Part shown: positions 20,040-36,421 of the stretch, piece after piece | How the letters are laid out: each line of letters begins with the position of its first letter | Numbering within the stretch: position 1 is the first letter of the stretch | NCBI GenBank assembly: GCA_020435295.1 | Contig: JAGQZV010000009.1 | Coordinates: 1-38,837, forward strand | Origin: Bdellovibrionales bacterium | GTDB taxonomy: Bacteria; Bdellovibrionota; FAC87; UBA2466; JACKAF01 | Direction of reading: 5' to 3' | Length of the DNA stretch: 38,837 nt | Notes under the pieces: generated by a model | The model's input: the letters and a program-made list of their open reading frames with translations, nothing else | Told to the model about the DNA's origin: nothing | Databases searched by the model: none | Position numbers and translations under genes: made by a program

Positions 20040-20426
20040 CTAATGCAGCACGGCCGCTTTTTCTCCCACAAAAACCAAATTGTGGTGCTCGGCTTCAGAC
20101 TGCAAACGGTCCGCGCGCTGCTTTGCATGCGTCTTATGGTGTTTTACCTTGTCTTTGTGCCTTTTAAGTTGGCGTCTCAATTTCTCCGCCATTTGGTTGA
20201 CCGCGCCGTAGAGACTTGGCGCCTTAACCTCTGCATGGAGATCTGTCCCATAGGCACCTACTACATCACAGTGGGCAACGCTATCGCGCCTTCGACGCGA
20301 GAACGTTACGTGAATCATAGGGGCTTTTTTTGTGTACTTCTCAACAACCCCAAGGAGTTTCGCTTCCGTGTACTCACACAAAGCCGGTGATGGATCGAGT
20401 TGGTGAAATGCAAAACGTATAGACAT
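20040..20426 (-). CDS. hpf: Ribosome hibernation promoting factor, short type
   Basis: The start at 20426 is chosen because GGGGGAA lies directly upstream on the minus strand. The frame remains open further up but that part is not protein-like. The 128-residue product has the S30AE/YfiA fold: an N-terminal strand-helix, then MIHVTFSRRRRDSVAHCDV, a segment with AEVKAPSLYGAVNQMAEKLRRQL, and a very basic C-terminal tail. It would bind the 30S subunit and help stop translation in stationary phase. It is short, without the C-terminal dimerisation domain of long HPFs. The upstream region holds the unusual inverted repeats at 20493-20627. Confidence 0.9.
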   Translation of the reverse strand: MSIRFAFHQLDPSPALCEYTEAKLLGVVEKYTKKAPMIHVTFSRRRRDSVAHCDVVGAYGTDLHAEVKAPSLYGAVNQMAEKLRRQLKRHKDKVKHHKTHAKQRADRLQSEAEHHNLVFVGEKAAVLH

Positions 20427-20492
20427 GAGTTCCCCCTTTTTTTTGCTCGTGGTTAACGTTGTTGATGTTCGGTATTTTTCCGATTTGGAGAA

Positions 20493-20534
20493 GTTTGGGA
20501 AGAAAACCGGTTTTACCCAGATTTCTTCCCAAAC
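20493..20534. repeat. 13-bp perfect inverted repeat upstream of hpf
   Basis: GTTTGGGAAGAAA (20493-20505) and its exact complement TTTCTTCCCAAAC (20522-20534) flank a 16-base loop. Overlapping it is the 12-base palindrome AAAACCGGTTTT (20503-20514). It lies 67-108 bases before the hpf start (minus strand) and 58 bases or more before a small plus-strand ORF. It could be an operator or a 5'-leader hairpin. No run of U follows it as a normal terminator would need. Confidence 0.9.
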
Positions 20535-20561
20535 CTTTAACTTTCGCGTTTTAGCGATCCA

Positions 20562-20627
20562 GTCAGGCACTGTTACTTGGAGGAGCAACTTGTGTGCCAG
20601 TCCGCAGAGTTGTCTTTCGTGCCTGAC
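20562..20627 (+). promoter_or_regulatory. Inverted repeat enclosing an SD and start codon
   Basis: GTCAGGCAC (20562-20570) is complemented by GTGCCTGAC (20619-20627). The enclosed segment contains a strong SD, GGAGGAG (20579-20585), and a GTG at 20592. In addition, the first arm can pair with the GTGCC that directly overlaps the start codon (20594-20598). The two pairings are mutually exclusive, so an RNA switch or leader structure is possible. Confidence 0.5.
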
Positions 20628-20856: not shown

Positions 20857-20872
20857 TGGCACTACTCTTGCT
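20857..20872 (+). promoter_or_regulatory. Consensus sigma-54 promoter
   Basis: TGGCAC at 20857, five bases, then TTGCT at 20868 matches the -24/-12 consensus TGGCAC-N5-TTGCW in all eleven fixed positions, with the required GG-N10-GC spacing. Transcription would begin near 20883, about 50 bases before the ATG of a small gene. It lies between two small ORFs. Confidence 0.8.
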
Positions 20873-29773: not shown

Positions 29774-30310
29774 TCAATTCCCGGGGGAGGGCGCTGCGGT
29801 GCCCTCCCTTAGCGGAAGAAGTTTAGCCATGTAGAATTCGTCTACAAATGCATCTCCCACGCGGAGCGAGTCGCGCTTCTTCCCCTCCACTTCAAATCCG
29901 CATTTCTTGTAAAGAGCCAAGGCGCGCGCGTTGTGCGCCATAACGGTAAGCTCCAAACGACGCAACCCACGTTTTTCTGCCCATTCAAACAAAGACGCCA
30001 TAAGGTCCTGCCCTAAGCCCTTGCCCGTGTAGGCCTGGAGAATGCCGACGATCAGATGAACACTGAGACGGCGTCTTTGCATCAAACTGCCGGTGGCTAT
30101 CAATAGTCCCACTGCTCTACCGTTCTCCTCCGCCACGAGTACCAGAGACTGCTCCTGGCGCAAATTGCCTTCCATCATAGCGTGCAAATTTTTTCGCTGC
30201 CTTTCACACTCCCCCGGCTCAAATGCCAGGAAGGCGGATTCCTGGTTCAAGATGACAAACAGATCCACCAGTGCATCTCGATCTTCAGCGGTCGCTTGTC
30301 TAACTCGCAT
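29774..30310 (-). CDS. GNAT-family N-acetyltransferase
   Basis: The 178-residue protein has the GNAT acetyl-CoA-binding motif A (GILQAYTGKGLGQDLMASL), a following helix (FEWAEKRG), ELTVMAHNARALALYKKCGF and a C-terminal strand, typical of RimI-like acetyltransferases. The substrate is not visible. The start has GGAG upstream and overlaps the 3' end of queG by 11 bases, so the two form an operon. An extended Lys/Arg-rich region at 45-60 is unremarkable. Confidence 0.85.
   Translation of the reverse strand: MRVRQATAEDRDALVDLFVILNQESAFLAFEPGECERQRKNLHAMMEGNLRQEQSLVLVAEENGRAVGLLIATGSLMQRRRLSVHLIVGILQAYTGKGLGQDLMASLFEWAEKRGLRRLELTVMAHNARALALYKKCGFEVEGKKRDSLRVGDAFVDEFYMAKLLPLREGTAAPSPGN
29785..29808. 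terminator. Strong hairpin between convergent genes
   Basis: GGGAGGGC (29785-29792) and GCCCTCCC (29801-29808) form an 8-bp GC stem around an 8-base loop. It lies 16 bases after the stop of the exported-protein gene and inside the 3' end of the GNAT gene. It may act as a transcription stop, but the T tract is only TT. Confidence 0.4.
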
Positions 30311-31376
30311 GCTTTTCTCTCCACTTTACAATCTGCCGTACCGTTTCCTTCAGCACGGGCGCCCCATCCATTTCACATATCTCCAACGCAGCTTGCAACT
30401 GTGAGTGTTCTATGACTGCCATCGCAATGAGCGCGTTGCGGCGCAGTCCCTCGCGCTTGGCGCGCGTAAGAGGGGTGCCACCAAAGTGGTATTCATAGGT
30501 ACTCTGATCCATCGTAGCGGTCGCAAAAAGATCCGGGTACTGGCGTACCGGAATATGACTTGGCAAATACCCTTTGTCTTTTTTCAGATTGTACGGACAA
30601 GCGAGCTGGCACAAGTCGCAACCGAAATAGTAGGTGCTCAACCATGGCCAGTACTGCTCAGGAATGGTCCCCCGATGTTCGATTGTCCAGTAGGCCAAAC
30701 ACCGGCGCGAGTCTATAGAGTAATCCGTGTCCAATGCGCCGGTGGGACAAATCTTCTGACACTCCCGACACGCCCCACACCCTCCTTCGGGCAGATGCAC
30801 ACCGGGATTGATTCGGCTGGGGATGTCCTTTTCGAAATCGATCGAAGTAAGAATGCCCGCCAAAAGAACAAAACTCCCCAGCTCCGGATGGATGTAGCAG
30901 GTGTTTTTTCCAATGAAACCGCGTTCGGTCTGGGCGGCCAGCGCTCGTTCCAAAATAGGGGCGGAGTCTACAAACACCCGCGCTTCTGCACCAGGGTAGT
31001 GGGTTTTAAGAGTTAGAGCGATTCGTTCCCCACTTTGCCGCAAGAGCTTGTGGTAGTCGCGGATCCGCGCGTATTGCGCCACCACCGGGCCCGCAACCGG
31101 AAGCTTCTCCCGCTGATCGTAACCCAGTGCAAACAATATTGCTGTACGCGATCCGGGTAGTAACCGAGCCGGCTCCGCACGCAACTCCGTGTGGCGCTCC
31201 AAAAACCGCATCTCCCCATGGCGTCCCTCTCCTAACCAACGTTCAAACTGCTCAAACGCGTCCGGCGTCTTAGGGGAACAAATCCCCAAGAATTCCAAAC
31301 CTTCCAGGTTGAGGAGTTGTTCCAATTCGGACCGCGATACTGCCACAAAGTGGTTGTAGGCGGCTCGGCCCCACAA
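30300..31376 (-). CDS. queG: Epoxyqueuosine reductase
   Basis: QueG reduces epoxyqueuosine to queuosine in tRNA, using cobalamin and two [4Fe-4S] clusters. The 358-residue protein has the ferredoxin-like motifs CGACRECQKICPTGAL and FGCDLCQLACPYN and the N-terminal segment that holds the B12 site (GFIGKNTC). Start at TTG 31376 or GTG 31346; neither has an SD. The RNA target would be tRNAs with GUN anticodons, none of which is in this window. Confidence 0.93.
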   Translation of the reverse strand: MWGRAAYNHFVAVSRSELEQLLNLEGLEFLGICSPKTPDAFEQFERWLGEGRHGEMRFLERHTELRAEPARLLPGSRTAILFALGYDQREKLPVAGPVVAQYARIRDYHKLLRQSGERIALTLKTHYPGAEARVFVDSAPILERALAAQTERGFIGKNTCYIHPELGSFVLLAGILTSIDFEKDIPSRINPGVHLPEGGCGACRECQKICPTGALDTDYSIDSRRCLAYWTIEHRGTIPEQYWPWLSTYYFGCDLCQLACPYNLKKDKGYLPSHIPVRQYPDLFATATMDQSTYEYHFGGTPLTRAKREGLRRNALIAMAVIEHSQLQAALEICEMDGAPVLKETVRQIVKWREKHAS

Positions 31377-31386
31377 ATCAAGCTGG

Positions 31387-31445
31387 CGGCGTATTCACGA
31401 AGAATTCCCCTTTTCCAGACAGCCGCTTATGGGATCGGCGTATTC
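31387..31445. repeat. Two copies of CGGCGTATTC upstream of a sigma-54 promoter
   Basis: CGGCGTATTC occurs at 31387-31396 and 31436-31445, 49 bases apart. They lie 35-93 bases upstream of the -24 element at 31480. Enhancer-binding proteins for sigma-54 bind at such distances, so these may be activator sites. The left copy also sits close to the queG start region. The role is inferred. Confidence 0.45.
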
Positions 31446-31479
31446 CCGGCAAGGACAGTGAAAAAACGAGCCTGCACCG

Positions 31480-31495
31480 TGGCACTCCAGTTGCA
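31480..31495 (+). promoter_or_regulatory. Consensus sigma-54 promoter
   Basis: TGGCAC (31480-31485), five bases, TTGCA (31491-31495): all eleven fixed positions match. Transcription would start near 31507, about 16 bases before the ATG at 31523. The downstream genes are a small exported protein, a TrpF-like protein and a Cu-ATPase. Confidence 0.82.
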
Positions 31496-31522
31496 CCTTT
31501 AAGGGGGCAGAGGGGGGATTCC

Positions 31523-31867
31523 ATGAAGTTTATCGTTCTTAGCCTAGCCCTACTACTTTGGGTTCAGTCCAGCGCAATGGCCTGTGGCGGCTGCAACAAG
31601 AGCAAAGCTGACAAATCGCCTCAAGCAACGGCTCCGACCAGTACCATTTCAGCTAATGCGAACGCTCCGGGCTCCACTCCGGCTCGCGAAATGGGCGCAC
31701 CTGTCATCCGTGGTCTCACGTCCAACCAACAAACAACGCGAGCTTTCTCATCAAGCTTTTTTGATTCCGTCGGCGAGCGGCTTCCAACAGCACGCCGACC
31801 CCGCGGTCTGGGGCAACGGGAGAGGGGTTTGCGGCAGGGCGGCGGTGCTTTGCGTAAGCCACGCTAA
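31523..31867 (+). CDS. Small exported Cys-containing protein, unknown
   Basis: The 114-residue protein begins with a signal peptide (MKFIVLSLALLLWVQSS) and cuts near AMA|CGGCNKSK, leaving an N-terminal CGGC motif. The rest is Ser/Thr/Ala-rich and disordered in appearance, with a basic C terminus. The AMAC site is an atypical lipobox. A GGGGGG SD and a perfect sigma-54 promoter lie upstream. CGGC could bind a metal such as copper, which would suit the CopA gene downstream, but this is a guess. Confidence 0.65.
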   Translation: MKFIVLSLALLLWVQSSAMACGGCNKSKADKSPQATAPTSTISANANAPGSTPAREMGAPVIRGLTSNQQTTRAFSSSFFDSVGERLPTARRPRGLGQRERGLRQGGGALRKPR

Positions 31868-31904
31868 ACTTTATCCACACAGCCATTTCGGTTATGCTTC
31901 CAGA

Positions 31905-32579
31905 ATGAACCACCCCCGCATACAGATCGCAGGGGTCTGCGATCTTACGGAAGCCTTGATGCTTTCTTTTTCTGGGGCCGACCACTTGGGTTTTCCTTTG
32001 GGGCCCGGCATCTCCACTGAAGAACTAAACGAAGCTGAAGCGGCAACTATTGCAAACAAACTACCCAAATGCACTACTCCAGTGCTCATCACCTATCTAC
32101 GAACGGCAGTTGAAGTACAAGCACTGGCTAATAAAGTCGGCATGGTACGCATCCAACTCCATGGAGACATCCCTCCTAGCGAGGTTGAAAAACTGAAACA
32201 GGGCGGCAGGTTCTATCTCATCAAAAGTGTTGTGATTGGGAAATTCAGCCCCGATGAGATCGTGTACAAGTACGATCCTTTTGTCGACGCGTTTATTACC
32301 GACACCTTTGACCCCGCGAGCAATCGATGCGGTGCCACGGGCATCGCACACGACTGGAACGAGAGCCGACGAGTCGTAAAAATGACAAAAAAACCCGTTA
32401 TTTTGGCGGGTGGATTGCGGGCCGACAACGTCGCCTCTGCCATCGCCGCTGTGCAACCGGCTGGCGTAGATGTACACACTGGTGTGGAGGATGAAAATGG
32501 GAGGAAGGACGAACTGCTAGTCCGGGGTTTCATCAAGAATGCGAAACAAGCATTTTCCGAGTTCTCCGCAAATGGCTAA
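31905..32579 (+). CDS. Phosphoribosylanthranilate isomerase-like (TrpF-fold) protein
   Basis: This 224-residue (beta/alpha)8 protein shows TrpF landmarks: GADHLGF (24-30), FITDTFD with D133 at the general-acid position, [20 protein letters not shown] (167-176) and a phosphate-binding VDVHTGVED. In TrpF the first strand is KICG, whose Cys is the catalytic base. Here it reads QIAGVC: Ala stands there, and a Cys comes three residues later (C12). It is in no trp operon and overlaps copA by 8 bases. It may do a related isomerisation or be non-catalytic. The ATG 31905 is preferred; the frame runs open upstream across another gene. Confidence 0.65.
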
Positions 32580-34641
32580 ATACACTTGTCCCATGCATCC
32601 AGAGGTGATTACCGACCGGCAGGGCAGCTGCCCGAAATGTGGGATGGCACTGGAGCCCGTTGAGGTAAGTACAAAGGCAGGGCCAAATGAAGAATACCTT
32701 TCCTTCCTACGACGGTTTTGGGTTTCGCTCCCCATCACCATAGCATTGATGGTACTGGCGATGCGCCACATGGGAAGTGCCGACACATCCAGCTGGTGGA
32801 TCCAGTGGGTACTAAGCACACCTATCGTATTTTGGGCGGGCTTCCCTTTTATTGAACGCGCATACCATTCCTTACACCATCTTCGCCCGAACATGTTTAC
32901 GCTCATCAGTTTGGGAGTGTTAACGGCGTACTTCTACAGTGCGTGGGTAACTGTGTTCCCGCGATCTGTTGAAGGCGCAGCGGTGTATTTTGAAGCGGCC
33001 GCAATGATCACGGTTCTGTCTCTAATTGGACAACTCCTCGAACTAAGGGCGCGGGAGAAAACCTCTGACTCGCTCAAGCAGCTTCTGAAGCTGGCACCGG
33101 AGACAGCGCACATCCTTCGCGACGGCCAGTACAAGGACGTGCACATCTGCCAGGTGAAAGTAAACGATCTCGTGAAGGTACGGCCCGGTGAGAAAGTCCC
33201 TGTCGATGGCGTAGTTCAAGAGGGCAGCAGTTCAGTTGATGAATCCATGTTAACAGGCGAACCTCTCCCGATTAACAAGAGCCTCGGCGACGCTGTGACC
33301 GCGGGAACGTTGAACCAGCAAGGGGTTTTGATCTTCAAGGCCACTCGTGTTGGAAAGGACACCACTCTTTCAAAGATTGTTAAGCTCGTTGGGGAGGCAC
33401 AGCGCAGCCGCGCTCCAATTCAGCGGATTGCCGATCAGGTTTCCGAATACTTTGTACCAGCGGTTGTTGGGATTGCAATTTTGACCTTCGTCATTTGGTA
33501 CGCTGTTGGACCGGAGCCTCATCTATCACACGCCCTGGTAAATGCAGTGGCAGTACTCATAGTGGCTTGCCCGTGCGCACTTGGGCTCGCCACGCCTATG
33601 TCTGTCATGGTCGCTACGGGCAAGGGTGCTGCGAACGGAATTCTATTCAAAAATGCTGAAAGCCTCGAAGGCCTAGCCAAAACCACGGTACTAATCGTTG
33701 ACAAGACAGGCACGCTTACCGAGGGCAACCCGTCTGTACACAACATAGAGTGCGTCGCAAATTACGATGAGAGCTCTGTTTTGCGCCTGGCTGCTTCACT
33801 GGAGCAACAAAGTGCGCACCCAATCTCGAAAGCCATCGTCAAAGAAGCGATCGATCGCGGGCTAGAGCTGCAAGCTTGTGAAAAGTTCCAGTCGGAAACC
33901 GGCAAGGGCATCTCCGGCATAGTGAATGGCGAGAGCATTTTCGTTGGCAGTGAAACGTCGATCCAAGAACATGGGTCAGAGCTTCCCGCGGCAGAGAAGT
34001 TTGGAGACTCAGGTCCTGGTACTAGTCATGTCTATGTGGCCGTGAACAATCAGGTGGTTGCTCGCCTAAGTATCCGCGATTCACTTAGACCGAGTTCCAA
34101 GCAGGCAGTGGAAGAGTTTAGGAAGAGAGGGCTGAGAGTCATTATGGCAAGCGGAGATCGCCGCGAATCAGCCGAAGCTATTGCGAAAGAAGTTGGCATT
34201 GCGGAGATCTACGCCCCTCTACTGCCCGAGGAAAAAAGCGCCCTAGTCAAAAAACTAAAGGAGGCTGGAGAAACTGTGGCCATGGCAGGAGACGGCATCA
34301 ACGATGCGCCGGCTTTAAGTATTGCCCAAGTCGGAATCGCCATGGGTGCGGGCTCCTCCATAGCGCTTGAAAGTGCGGGAGTTGCACTGATGCGAAATGA
34401 CCTCTTCCATCTCGCCCAGGCCTATGTGCTTAGTCAGAAAACCCTAGGCAATATTCGACAAAACTTGTTTTTCGCTTTTTTCTACAACTCACTAGGCGTG
34501 CCGATCGCTTCTGGCATCCTCTACCCTGCCTTTGGATTACTTCTGAGCCCAGTATTTGCAAGCGTAGCAATGAGCCTCAGCTCAGTCTCTGTAATTGGAA
34601 ATGCTCTGCGGATACGATCGATCAGGCTGCCTGTGGCCTGA
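32572..34641 (+). CDS. copA: Copper-type P1B-ATPase
   Basis: The start at 32572 overlaps the TrpF-like stop. The 689-residue P-type ATPase begins with a short heavy-metal motif, YTCPMHPEV...CPKCGM (C6, C20, C23), instead of a full HMA domain. Then come the A domain TGEP, the transmembrane metal motif CPC (C333-P-C335), the phosphorylation motif DKTGTLT (D377), and GDGIND. A terminal [14 protein letters not shown] helix is typical of CopA/CopB pumps, which move Cu(I) or Ag(I) outward. The CPC motif favours Cu(I). It probably shares the sigma-54 transcript from 31480. The 3' end overlaps the PP2C gene by 20 bases. Confidence 0.92.
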
Positions 34642-35458
34642 AAAGGATAAAAGTGCAATCGTCAGGTTTAGACGGGTGAGTTCCCGTTTCGGCGATCATC
34701 CGCTGATGCACATCGGAAGATAGTTGGTTCATAACATTCTCGAGGTTGCCCTTGCGGGCACGCTCTATTATTTCCTCGGTCAAGAAATTGTCGGAAAGCC
34801 CATCCGTTGCAAGAAGCAACGTGTCTCTCTGTCCGAGTTTCAGGCTGGGTCCAATTTCAATACGCATCTCCTGCGATCCAAGCATGTTGGATATCAAGTT
34901 GGAGTCTGGATCGGACAGAGCTTCACGTTCGTCCATCGCTCCCCCCTCAACCAAATAACCAACAGGAGAATGAGGTACAGTTTGCCACTTCGTTTTGCCT
35001 TTGAGCCCGAAAAGAAGAATCAGCGAATCACCAACATGGTACGGACGGATTTGATCTTGGCTGACCTCCGCAATGGAAATCGTCGTGGCCGAGCCTTGGC
35101 CCAAGCTGAGGATTCGGGTATTCGCCTCCTCTATTCCATTCAGGATGGCATCTCGCACCTGCAGACCGCTCTTTTGCCCCTTGTCGAGTGCCTCATCAAG
35201 CGCTTGCATCGCCACTTCAGACGCCTGTGATCCCTTGGGAAGTCCGCCTACCCCGTCTGCTACCGCTAAAACTACCGTACCATCGCCATACGAAAACAAC
35301 CCTGCGGCGTCTTCGTTCTGGTGCTTCGGACTTTTCTCAGGGGATCGCGTAGAGTAAACGGCTATCTGGCCAAAAGGGAGCTGGATGACCTCACCTACAT
35401 GCATCTCGTCATCAAGGTAGACTTTCTTGACGAGGTCTTTTGTTTTCCAGAATAGCAT
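34622..35458 (-). CDS. PP2C-type Ser/Thr protein phosphatase
   Basis: The 278-residue protein has the metal-binding PP2C motifs [23 protein letters not shown] and PDDCTFI. It would remove phosphate from Ser/Thr residues with two Mn/Mg ions. No membrane segment. A 30-residue N-terminal extension precedes the core. The gene follows the kinase by 9 bases, so it is the natural antagonist of that kinase. It converges on copA, overlapping by 20 bases. Confidence 0.92.
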
Positions 35459-35467
35459 GAGCCTGTG

Positions 35468-36421
35468 CTACCAAACCATCGTTTCCAAATATCGTCGGAG
35501 ATGCCCGGCCGTTGGAAATTTCTTCCAAATTAGCCCAATCTTCAGACCACAAATGATCTCTTTCACCTGAGGCGGAACTTTTGAGTACGCACGCTTTCCG
35601 CCCAAAGTCTCATGAAACACCCGGATCATCGCCACCACATCGTCACGAATATTCTCGGGGCGAGGGGCTGCCCAGTGGAAAAAATCCAAAATCTTCAGAT
35701 CGAAACCCAAGCCTTGGCGCCTAATAATAACGTTCTCCGAATGCAAATCTCCATGGTACTCACGCGCCTGATGTATCTGCTCCATCCCTCGCGCCAGAGC
35801 ATGTAGCAGGTGCAGCGCCTGAAAATAGTGCATGCGCTGGCCCTTTTGCCGCTTTAGGAAACTGGCAAGCAGCTCACCTTCTACATATTCTGATATAAGT
35901 GCCGTCACGAGAGAGCCGTAATGATAAAAACTCTCCATCGTGTGGTACTGAATCAGAACCGGGCACTCGCGCAGCTTATGGAGTTTTTTTGCGTAAAACT
36001 TTAGAACCTTGTTGCGCGGATTGCGATGGGGGAAAAATATCTTTGCCGCACGCAGAATACCAGTCTCTATCTCCCGGATCAGGTAGACTTCGGCTTCCCA
36101 CCCGGCCCCCAACTGTGAGATCACTTCATATTTTCTGGAGAAGCGGCGTCCAGGAGGAAAATTAAAAGCTTCTATTTTTCGTGGTTTGGTTTTTTTCTTT
36201 TTCTTTTTTTTCTTCTTTTTTTTCCTGGCGGGCTTACGGCGTTTCAGTTTCTTCTTCTTCTTGACTCTCTTCTTTTTCAGTCGTTTCTTTTTCTTAGGCT
36301 TTTTCCTTTTCACACGGGCGCGGCCGCGGACGCGTCGCACTCTGACTTTCTTGCGCTTCTTCTTGCGCCGTTTCTTCTTCCGCACGTTTTTTTTGCGGGG
36401 CTTCTTCTTCAGTCTAGCCAT
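35468..36421 (-). CDS. Ser/Thr kinase-like protein with an 80-residue poly-Lys/Arg tail
   Basis: Residues 1-80 hold about 60 Lys/Arg and no acidic residue, including an 11-Lys run at 67-77. A protein-kinase-like domain follows: glycine-rich loop LGAGWEAEV (104-112), ATP-binding K127 in RAAKIFF, catalytic loop HGDLHSEN (223-230, D225, N230) and DFF (246-248) in place of DFG. The tail resembles histone H1-like or nucleoid proteins and could bind DNA, RNA or polyphosphate. The homopolymer runs (A7-A8 on the coding strand) could slip. The start has no good SD and sits 4 bases from a palindrome, GTTTACGTAAAC. Operon with PP2C and the gene upstream. Confidence 0.8.
   Translation of the reverse strand: MARLKKKPRKKNVRKKKRRKKKRKKVRVRRVRGRARVKRKKPKKKKRLKKKRVKKKKKLKRRKPARKKKKKKKKKKKTKPRKIEAFNFPPGRRFSRKYEVISQLGAGWEAEVYLIREIETGILRAAKIFFPHRNPRNKVLKFYAKKLHKLRECPVLIQYHTMESFYHYGSLVTALISEYVEGELLASFLKRQKGQRMHYFQALHLLHALARGMEQIHQAREYHGDLHSENVIIRRQGLGFDLKILDFFHWAAPRPENIRDDVVAMIRVFHETLGGKRAYSKVPPQVKEIICGLKIGLIWKKFPTAGHLRRYLETMVW

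Follow-up and report, generated by a model that had tools for sequence, protein, structure and literature searches.

An exact sigma-54 promoter match ahead of a likely operon for an exported CGGC protein, a TrpF-like protein and the copper ATPase CopA

In the 38,837-nt stretch of DNA analyzed here (the window), a sigma-54 promoter is predicted immediately upstream of three same-strand genes encoding a small exported CGGC protein (ORF1), a TrpF-like protein and a Cu(I)-exporting P-type ATPase (CopA), which likely form one operon (Table 1). In the reading that we somewhat favor on the basis of sequence, this promoter drives the whole three-gene unit and would serve conditional export under envelope or copper stress in the manner of the Myxococcus curA system. 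The promoter would stay silent until opened by an activator, presumably of the NtrC family and encoded elsewhere in the genome, resulting in a transcript that would read through beyond ORF1 into the TrpF-like gene and copA. From this message, the small exported CGGC protein, a cytoplasmic barrel protein that has apparently lost its role in tryptophan synthesis and, probably by translational coupling to the latter via the ATGGCTAA overlap, CopA would be produced, with CopA moving Cu(I) out of the cytoplasm.

Table 1. Coordinates of the features discussed, given as positions in the window.
Feature	Position	Strand	Basis or remark
queG (epoxyqueuosine reductase)	30300-31376	-	TIGR00276 above cut-off; divergent neighbor, outside the operon
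Repeat copy 1, CGGCGTATTCACG	31387-31399	+	proposed enhancer, unsupported
Repeat copy 2, CGGCGTATTCCCG	31436-31448	+	proposed enhancer, unsupported
Sigma-54 (-24/-12) promoter, TGGCAC-N5-TTGCA	31480-31495	+	exact match; predicted transcription start at about 31505-31507
ORF1, 114-aa exported protein	31523-31867	+	signal peptide followed by ACGGCNKSK; first target of the promoter
TrpF-like (PRAI-fold) protein, separate subfamily	31905-32579	+	PF00697, E=8e-22; catalytic Cys replaced by Ala9
CopA, Cu(I)-exporting P1B-1 ATPase with N-terminal HMBD	32572 (or 32539)-34641	+	TIGR01511, motifs, 3rfu
PP2C-type phosphatase	34622-35458	-	convergent; 20-bp overlap with the 3' end of copA; operon boundary

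The promoter sequence TGGCACTCCAGTTGCA lies in an intergenic region and shows the GG and GC doublets at canonical spacing, with the ATG of ORF1 following 43 bp downstream of the 31480 site behind a purine-rich ribosome site. The exact match had already been pointed out in an earlier note and is borne out by the pattern scan, but it is not the second perfect site as stated there: with exact matches at 20584 (-), 20857 (+) and 31480 (+), it is by position the third of three in the window. Within the window alone, four matches with at most one mismatch compare with 1.8 expected and this count is equaled in 13 of 100 shuffles, so that the significance of the 31480 site rests on the genome-wide count. 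Here, 38 exact sites compare with 4 when the pattern is reversed as a control, from which about nine in ten of the exact sites are expected to be genuine. The majority of them are located outside long open reading frames and 28-130 bp upstream of an ORF. Moreover, the genome encodes one RpoN (PF04552, E=2.9e-62) and about 14 strong matches to sigma-54 activator ATPases (PF00158), while the same PF00158 search did not reveal an activator gene in the contig of the window. Overall, the prediction of a sigma-54 promoter at 31480 is sound.

Apparent targets of the other sigma-54 sites include FliL, a ribosome hibernation factor (HPF), a subtilase, a lytic transglycosylase and an NtrC-type regulator (EBP). 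Many others are small proteins lacking Pfam assignment and showing signal-peptide-like starts. Judged by eye, about 20 of 34 targets carry a signal peptide, but what appears obvious in this way is not statistically clear under either automatic rule: the strict one gave 11/34 targets versus 44/216 control genes (p=0.09) and with the looser one the difference was likewise not significant. An enrichment of exported proteins among the sigma-54 targets is thus a suggestion. In the window, a gene for a Ribosomal_S30AE hibernation factor (20043-20570, minus strand) directly follows the exact site at 20584-20599 (-), and the exact site at 20857 is divergent to it. Elsewhere, a sigma-54 activator gene (L077:4914-6377) is interrupted by an in-frame TAG, representing a broken gene or an assembly error, on a contig that also bears two exact sigma-54 sites. 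The promoter regions of two paralogous TPR membrane proteins (L008 and L013) are nearly identical and show GTGCCA...TGGGGCAC repeats upstream, which could be an activator site.

ORF1 starts with MKFIVLSLALLLWVQSSAMACGGCNKSK, comprising a signal peptide that passes the strict rule and the CGGC motif. No match was found for it in Pfam or NCBIfam, and a search of 143 other genomes from its phylum did not reveal a relative. The coding score is positive for the first half of the gene, whereas the second half scores weakly with a non-coding-like codon use, which makes the C-terminal reading less certain. The product could act in metal binding or in thiol chemistry.

Upstream of the promoter, the sequence CGGCGTATTC occurs exactly at 31387 and 31436, i.e., 49 bp apart, and the similarity extends to CGGCGTATTC[A/C]CG with 12 of 13 positions matching. 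The two copies described in the earlier note thus do exist, but the enhancer role proposed for them is not supported. When the same 103 bp are shuffled, 3.1% of the sequences also show a repeated 10-mer on either strand, and 3 of 38 sigma-54 upstream regions contain such a repeat, so the pair is not clearly above chance. In addition, the 23 copies of CGGCGTATTC in the genome are mostly placed within open frames, as with GAATACGCCG, which is read as EYAG. At the other genomic sigma-54 sites, where the earlier note had suggested searching for it, the sequence was not found in enhancer position, with one copy, in C232, directly abutting the -24 box. A common upstream 8-mer was likewise discarded, as the best candidate, an A-rich one, is present at 6 of 37 sites, little over the 3-5 obtained in simulated sequence. 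The CGGCGTATTC pair may nevertheless bind a factor at this locus.

The second gene of the unit encodes a protein with the barrel fold of phosphoribosylanthranilate isomerase. Its structure model (pLDDT 92) is closest to TrpF structures, with a TM-score of about 0.8 to 1nsj, and it shares with TrpF (1nsj, 1lbm) the general-acid Asp (D133), invariant in the family alignment, as well as the phosphate-site glycines. The catalytic Cys of TrpF sits in KICG. Here, in contrast, this residue is replaced by Ala9 (QIAG), with Ala also present in 98% of the relatives, and the motifs HTGVE, ITYL and ATGxxHDW are specific for the subfamily, with HTGVE and ATGxxHDW being nearly invariant. The protein scores far below all NCBIfam cut-offs for TrpF (118 versus 215 bits). 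Since neither TrpC (IGPS) nor TrpA nor a second PRAI protein was found in the genome (96% complete), it cannot act in tryptophan synthesis in the conventional manner, and an assignment as TrpF of this pathway was rejected.

Using a two-sequence alignment, 145 relatives were retrieved from genomes across many phyla; the top 80 among them (L114-L193) show 42-52% identity to the query. Neighboring genes are not generally conserved in this family. In three deltaproteobacterial relatives, a Cu ATPase gene is located about 4 kb off on the opposite strand, which reflects shared local synteny and not an operon, and a general linkage of TrpF-like and Cu ATPase genes was dismissed. The nearest relative from the same order is found after a gene for a PhoR-type kinase, without copA. 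Furthermore, none of 74 relatives checked has an exact site for sigma-54 at a distance of up to 500 bp. As the family is widespread without conserved neighbors or sigma-54 sites, the coupling to copA is local to this organism. The family matches TrpF family models only and is therefore probably misannotated as phosphoribosylanthranilate isomerase. That this TrpF-derived family, having lost the base of the isomerase, took on a new task which is here tied to copper handling through translational coupling with CopA under sigma-54 control is a rather unlikely proposal.

CopA is clearly assigned by the copper-ATPase model TIGR01511 (601 bits at a cut-off of 397), and it carries all P1B-1 motifs (CPC in TM6, YN in TM7, MxxSS in TM8, DKTGT, HP and GDGxND). 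Among solved structures, the best match is the copper efflux ATPase 3rfu (E=2.5e-223). With this Legionella-type CopA, the protein shares a full-length match, including the CPC, DKTGT, HP, GDGxND, TM7 and TM8 motifs and an N-terminal metal-binding stretch YTCPMHP, whereas the placement of the gene behind a TrpF-like gene and a sigma-54 promoter is different. Translation most likely starts at 32572.

Among 29 homologous copA loci of the phylum (48-55% identity), none shows an exact sigma-54 site within 1.5 kb upstream and only one degenerate site with 10 of 11 positions was detected, which speaks against sigma-54 control being conserved across copA homologs. Hence, with none at the 74 TrpF-like genes either, conservation does not support the promoter, and the sigma-54 arrangement at these genes is local. 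Considering the missing conservation and that, given the 4 reversed-control matches genome-wide, about one in ten exact sites would be accidental, the match at 31480 might be fortuitous and the operon transcribed from a different promoter; this is improbable in view of its intergenic location, correct orientation and ATG spacing and the good purine-rich ribosome site that follows.

The three genes are arranged in the order ORF1, TrpF-like gene and copA, with a gap of 37 bp and an overlap of 8 bp, respectively, confirming the ORFs and the short distances between them claimed in the earlier note. The overlap is formed by the ATG of copA and the stop codon of the TrpF-like gene, an arrangement that usually points to translational coupling. 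In the interval from ORF1 to the TrpF-like gene, neither a terminator-like stem nor a sigma-70-like site on the plus strand was found, although the sigma-70 promoters of this organism may not fit the consensus scanned. At the upstream border, the true start of queG is likely a GTG near 31346. Beyond the downstream border, the phosphatase gene is adjoined by a gene (35468-36421, minus strand) for a Ser/Thr kinase whose N-terminal region is hyper-basic over about 80 residues. The main competing explanation is that the sigma-54 promoter serves ORF1 alone, with the TrpF-like gene and copA being mere neighbors read mainly from a promoter within ORF1 or the 37-bp gap. Many genomic sigma-54 sites do precede single small exported proteins, and both the mostly unconserved neighborhood of the TrpF-like relatives and the lack of a nearby exact site at any homologous copA would fit this explanation, but the short distance to the TrpF-like gene, free of terminator-like stem and sigma-70-like site, argues against it, and we consider it possible but rather unlikely. 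It would not be exclusive with the operon, since copA of Myxococcus answers both promoter kinds (PMC3707914). The earlier proposal of a sigma-54 promoter ahead of a three-gene operon is well supported by sequence, with transcription as a single unit being likely.

Sigma-54 control of copper export had been characterized in the earlier note as not common, which is fair, but the arrangement itself is already known from Myxococcus. In M. xanthus, copA is part of the nine-gene curA operon and is driven by CorR-sigma54. This operon has putative sigma-54 sites upstream and a first gene encoding an exported protein with a His-rich putative metal-binding region (PMC3707914). At low oxygen, NmpR of Myxococcus likewise controls a P-type ATPase associated with a cbb3 oxidase (PMC11841059). 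With curA, the present locus has in common that copA is positioned after a putative sigma-54 site and that the first gene encodes an exported protein. In contrast, curA possesses its own sensor and activator (CorSR), a multicopper oxidase and lipoproteins, all absent here, and only the present locus has a TrpF-like gene inserted. None of the relatives examined showed the combination of ORF1, TrpF-like gene and copA. With sigma-54 control of copA being precedented by curA and NmpR, copper would be a reasonable signal. A tentative alternative, which we likewise consider possible but rather unlikely, is that sigma-54 drives the whole unit in response to a cue other than copper excess, such as low oxygen, starvation or life on surfaces, and that CopA provides an exported enzyme or an oxidase with copper. 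The oxidase-linked ATPase of the NmpR system would be consistent with this, and the targets FliL, HPF, subtilase, transglycosylase and EBP point to a mixed life-style regulon; however, the closest solved relative of CopA is an efflux ATPase and the unit does not contain an oxidase gene. Conditional export under envelope or copper stress is the reading retained.

With this organism, a second lineage, outside Myxococcus, apparently has a copper pump under RpoN control. The unexpected part of the locus is the TrpF-derived family. For this broad family, the name phosphoribosylanthranilate isomerase is probably wrong, and a correction would touch many database entries.
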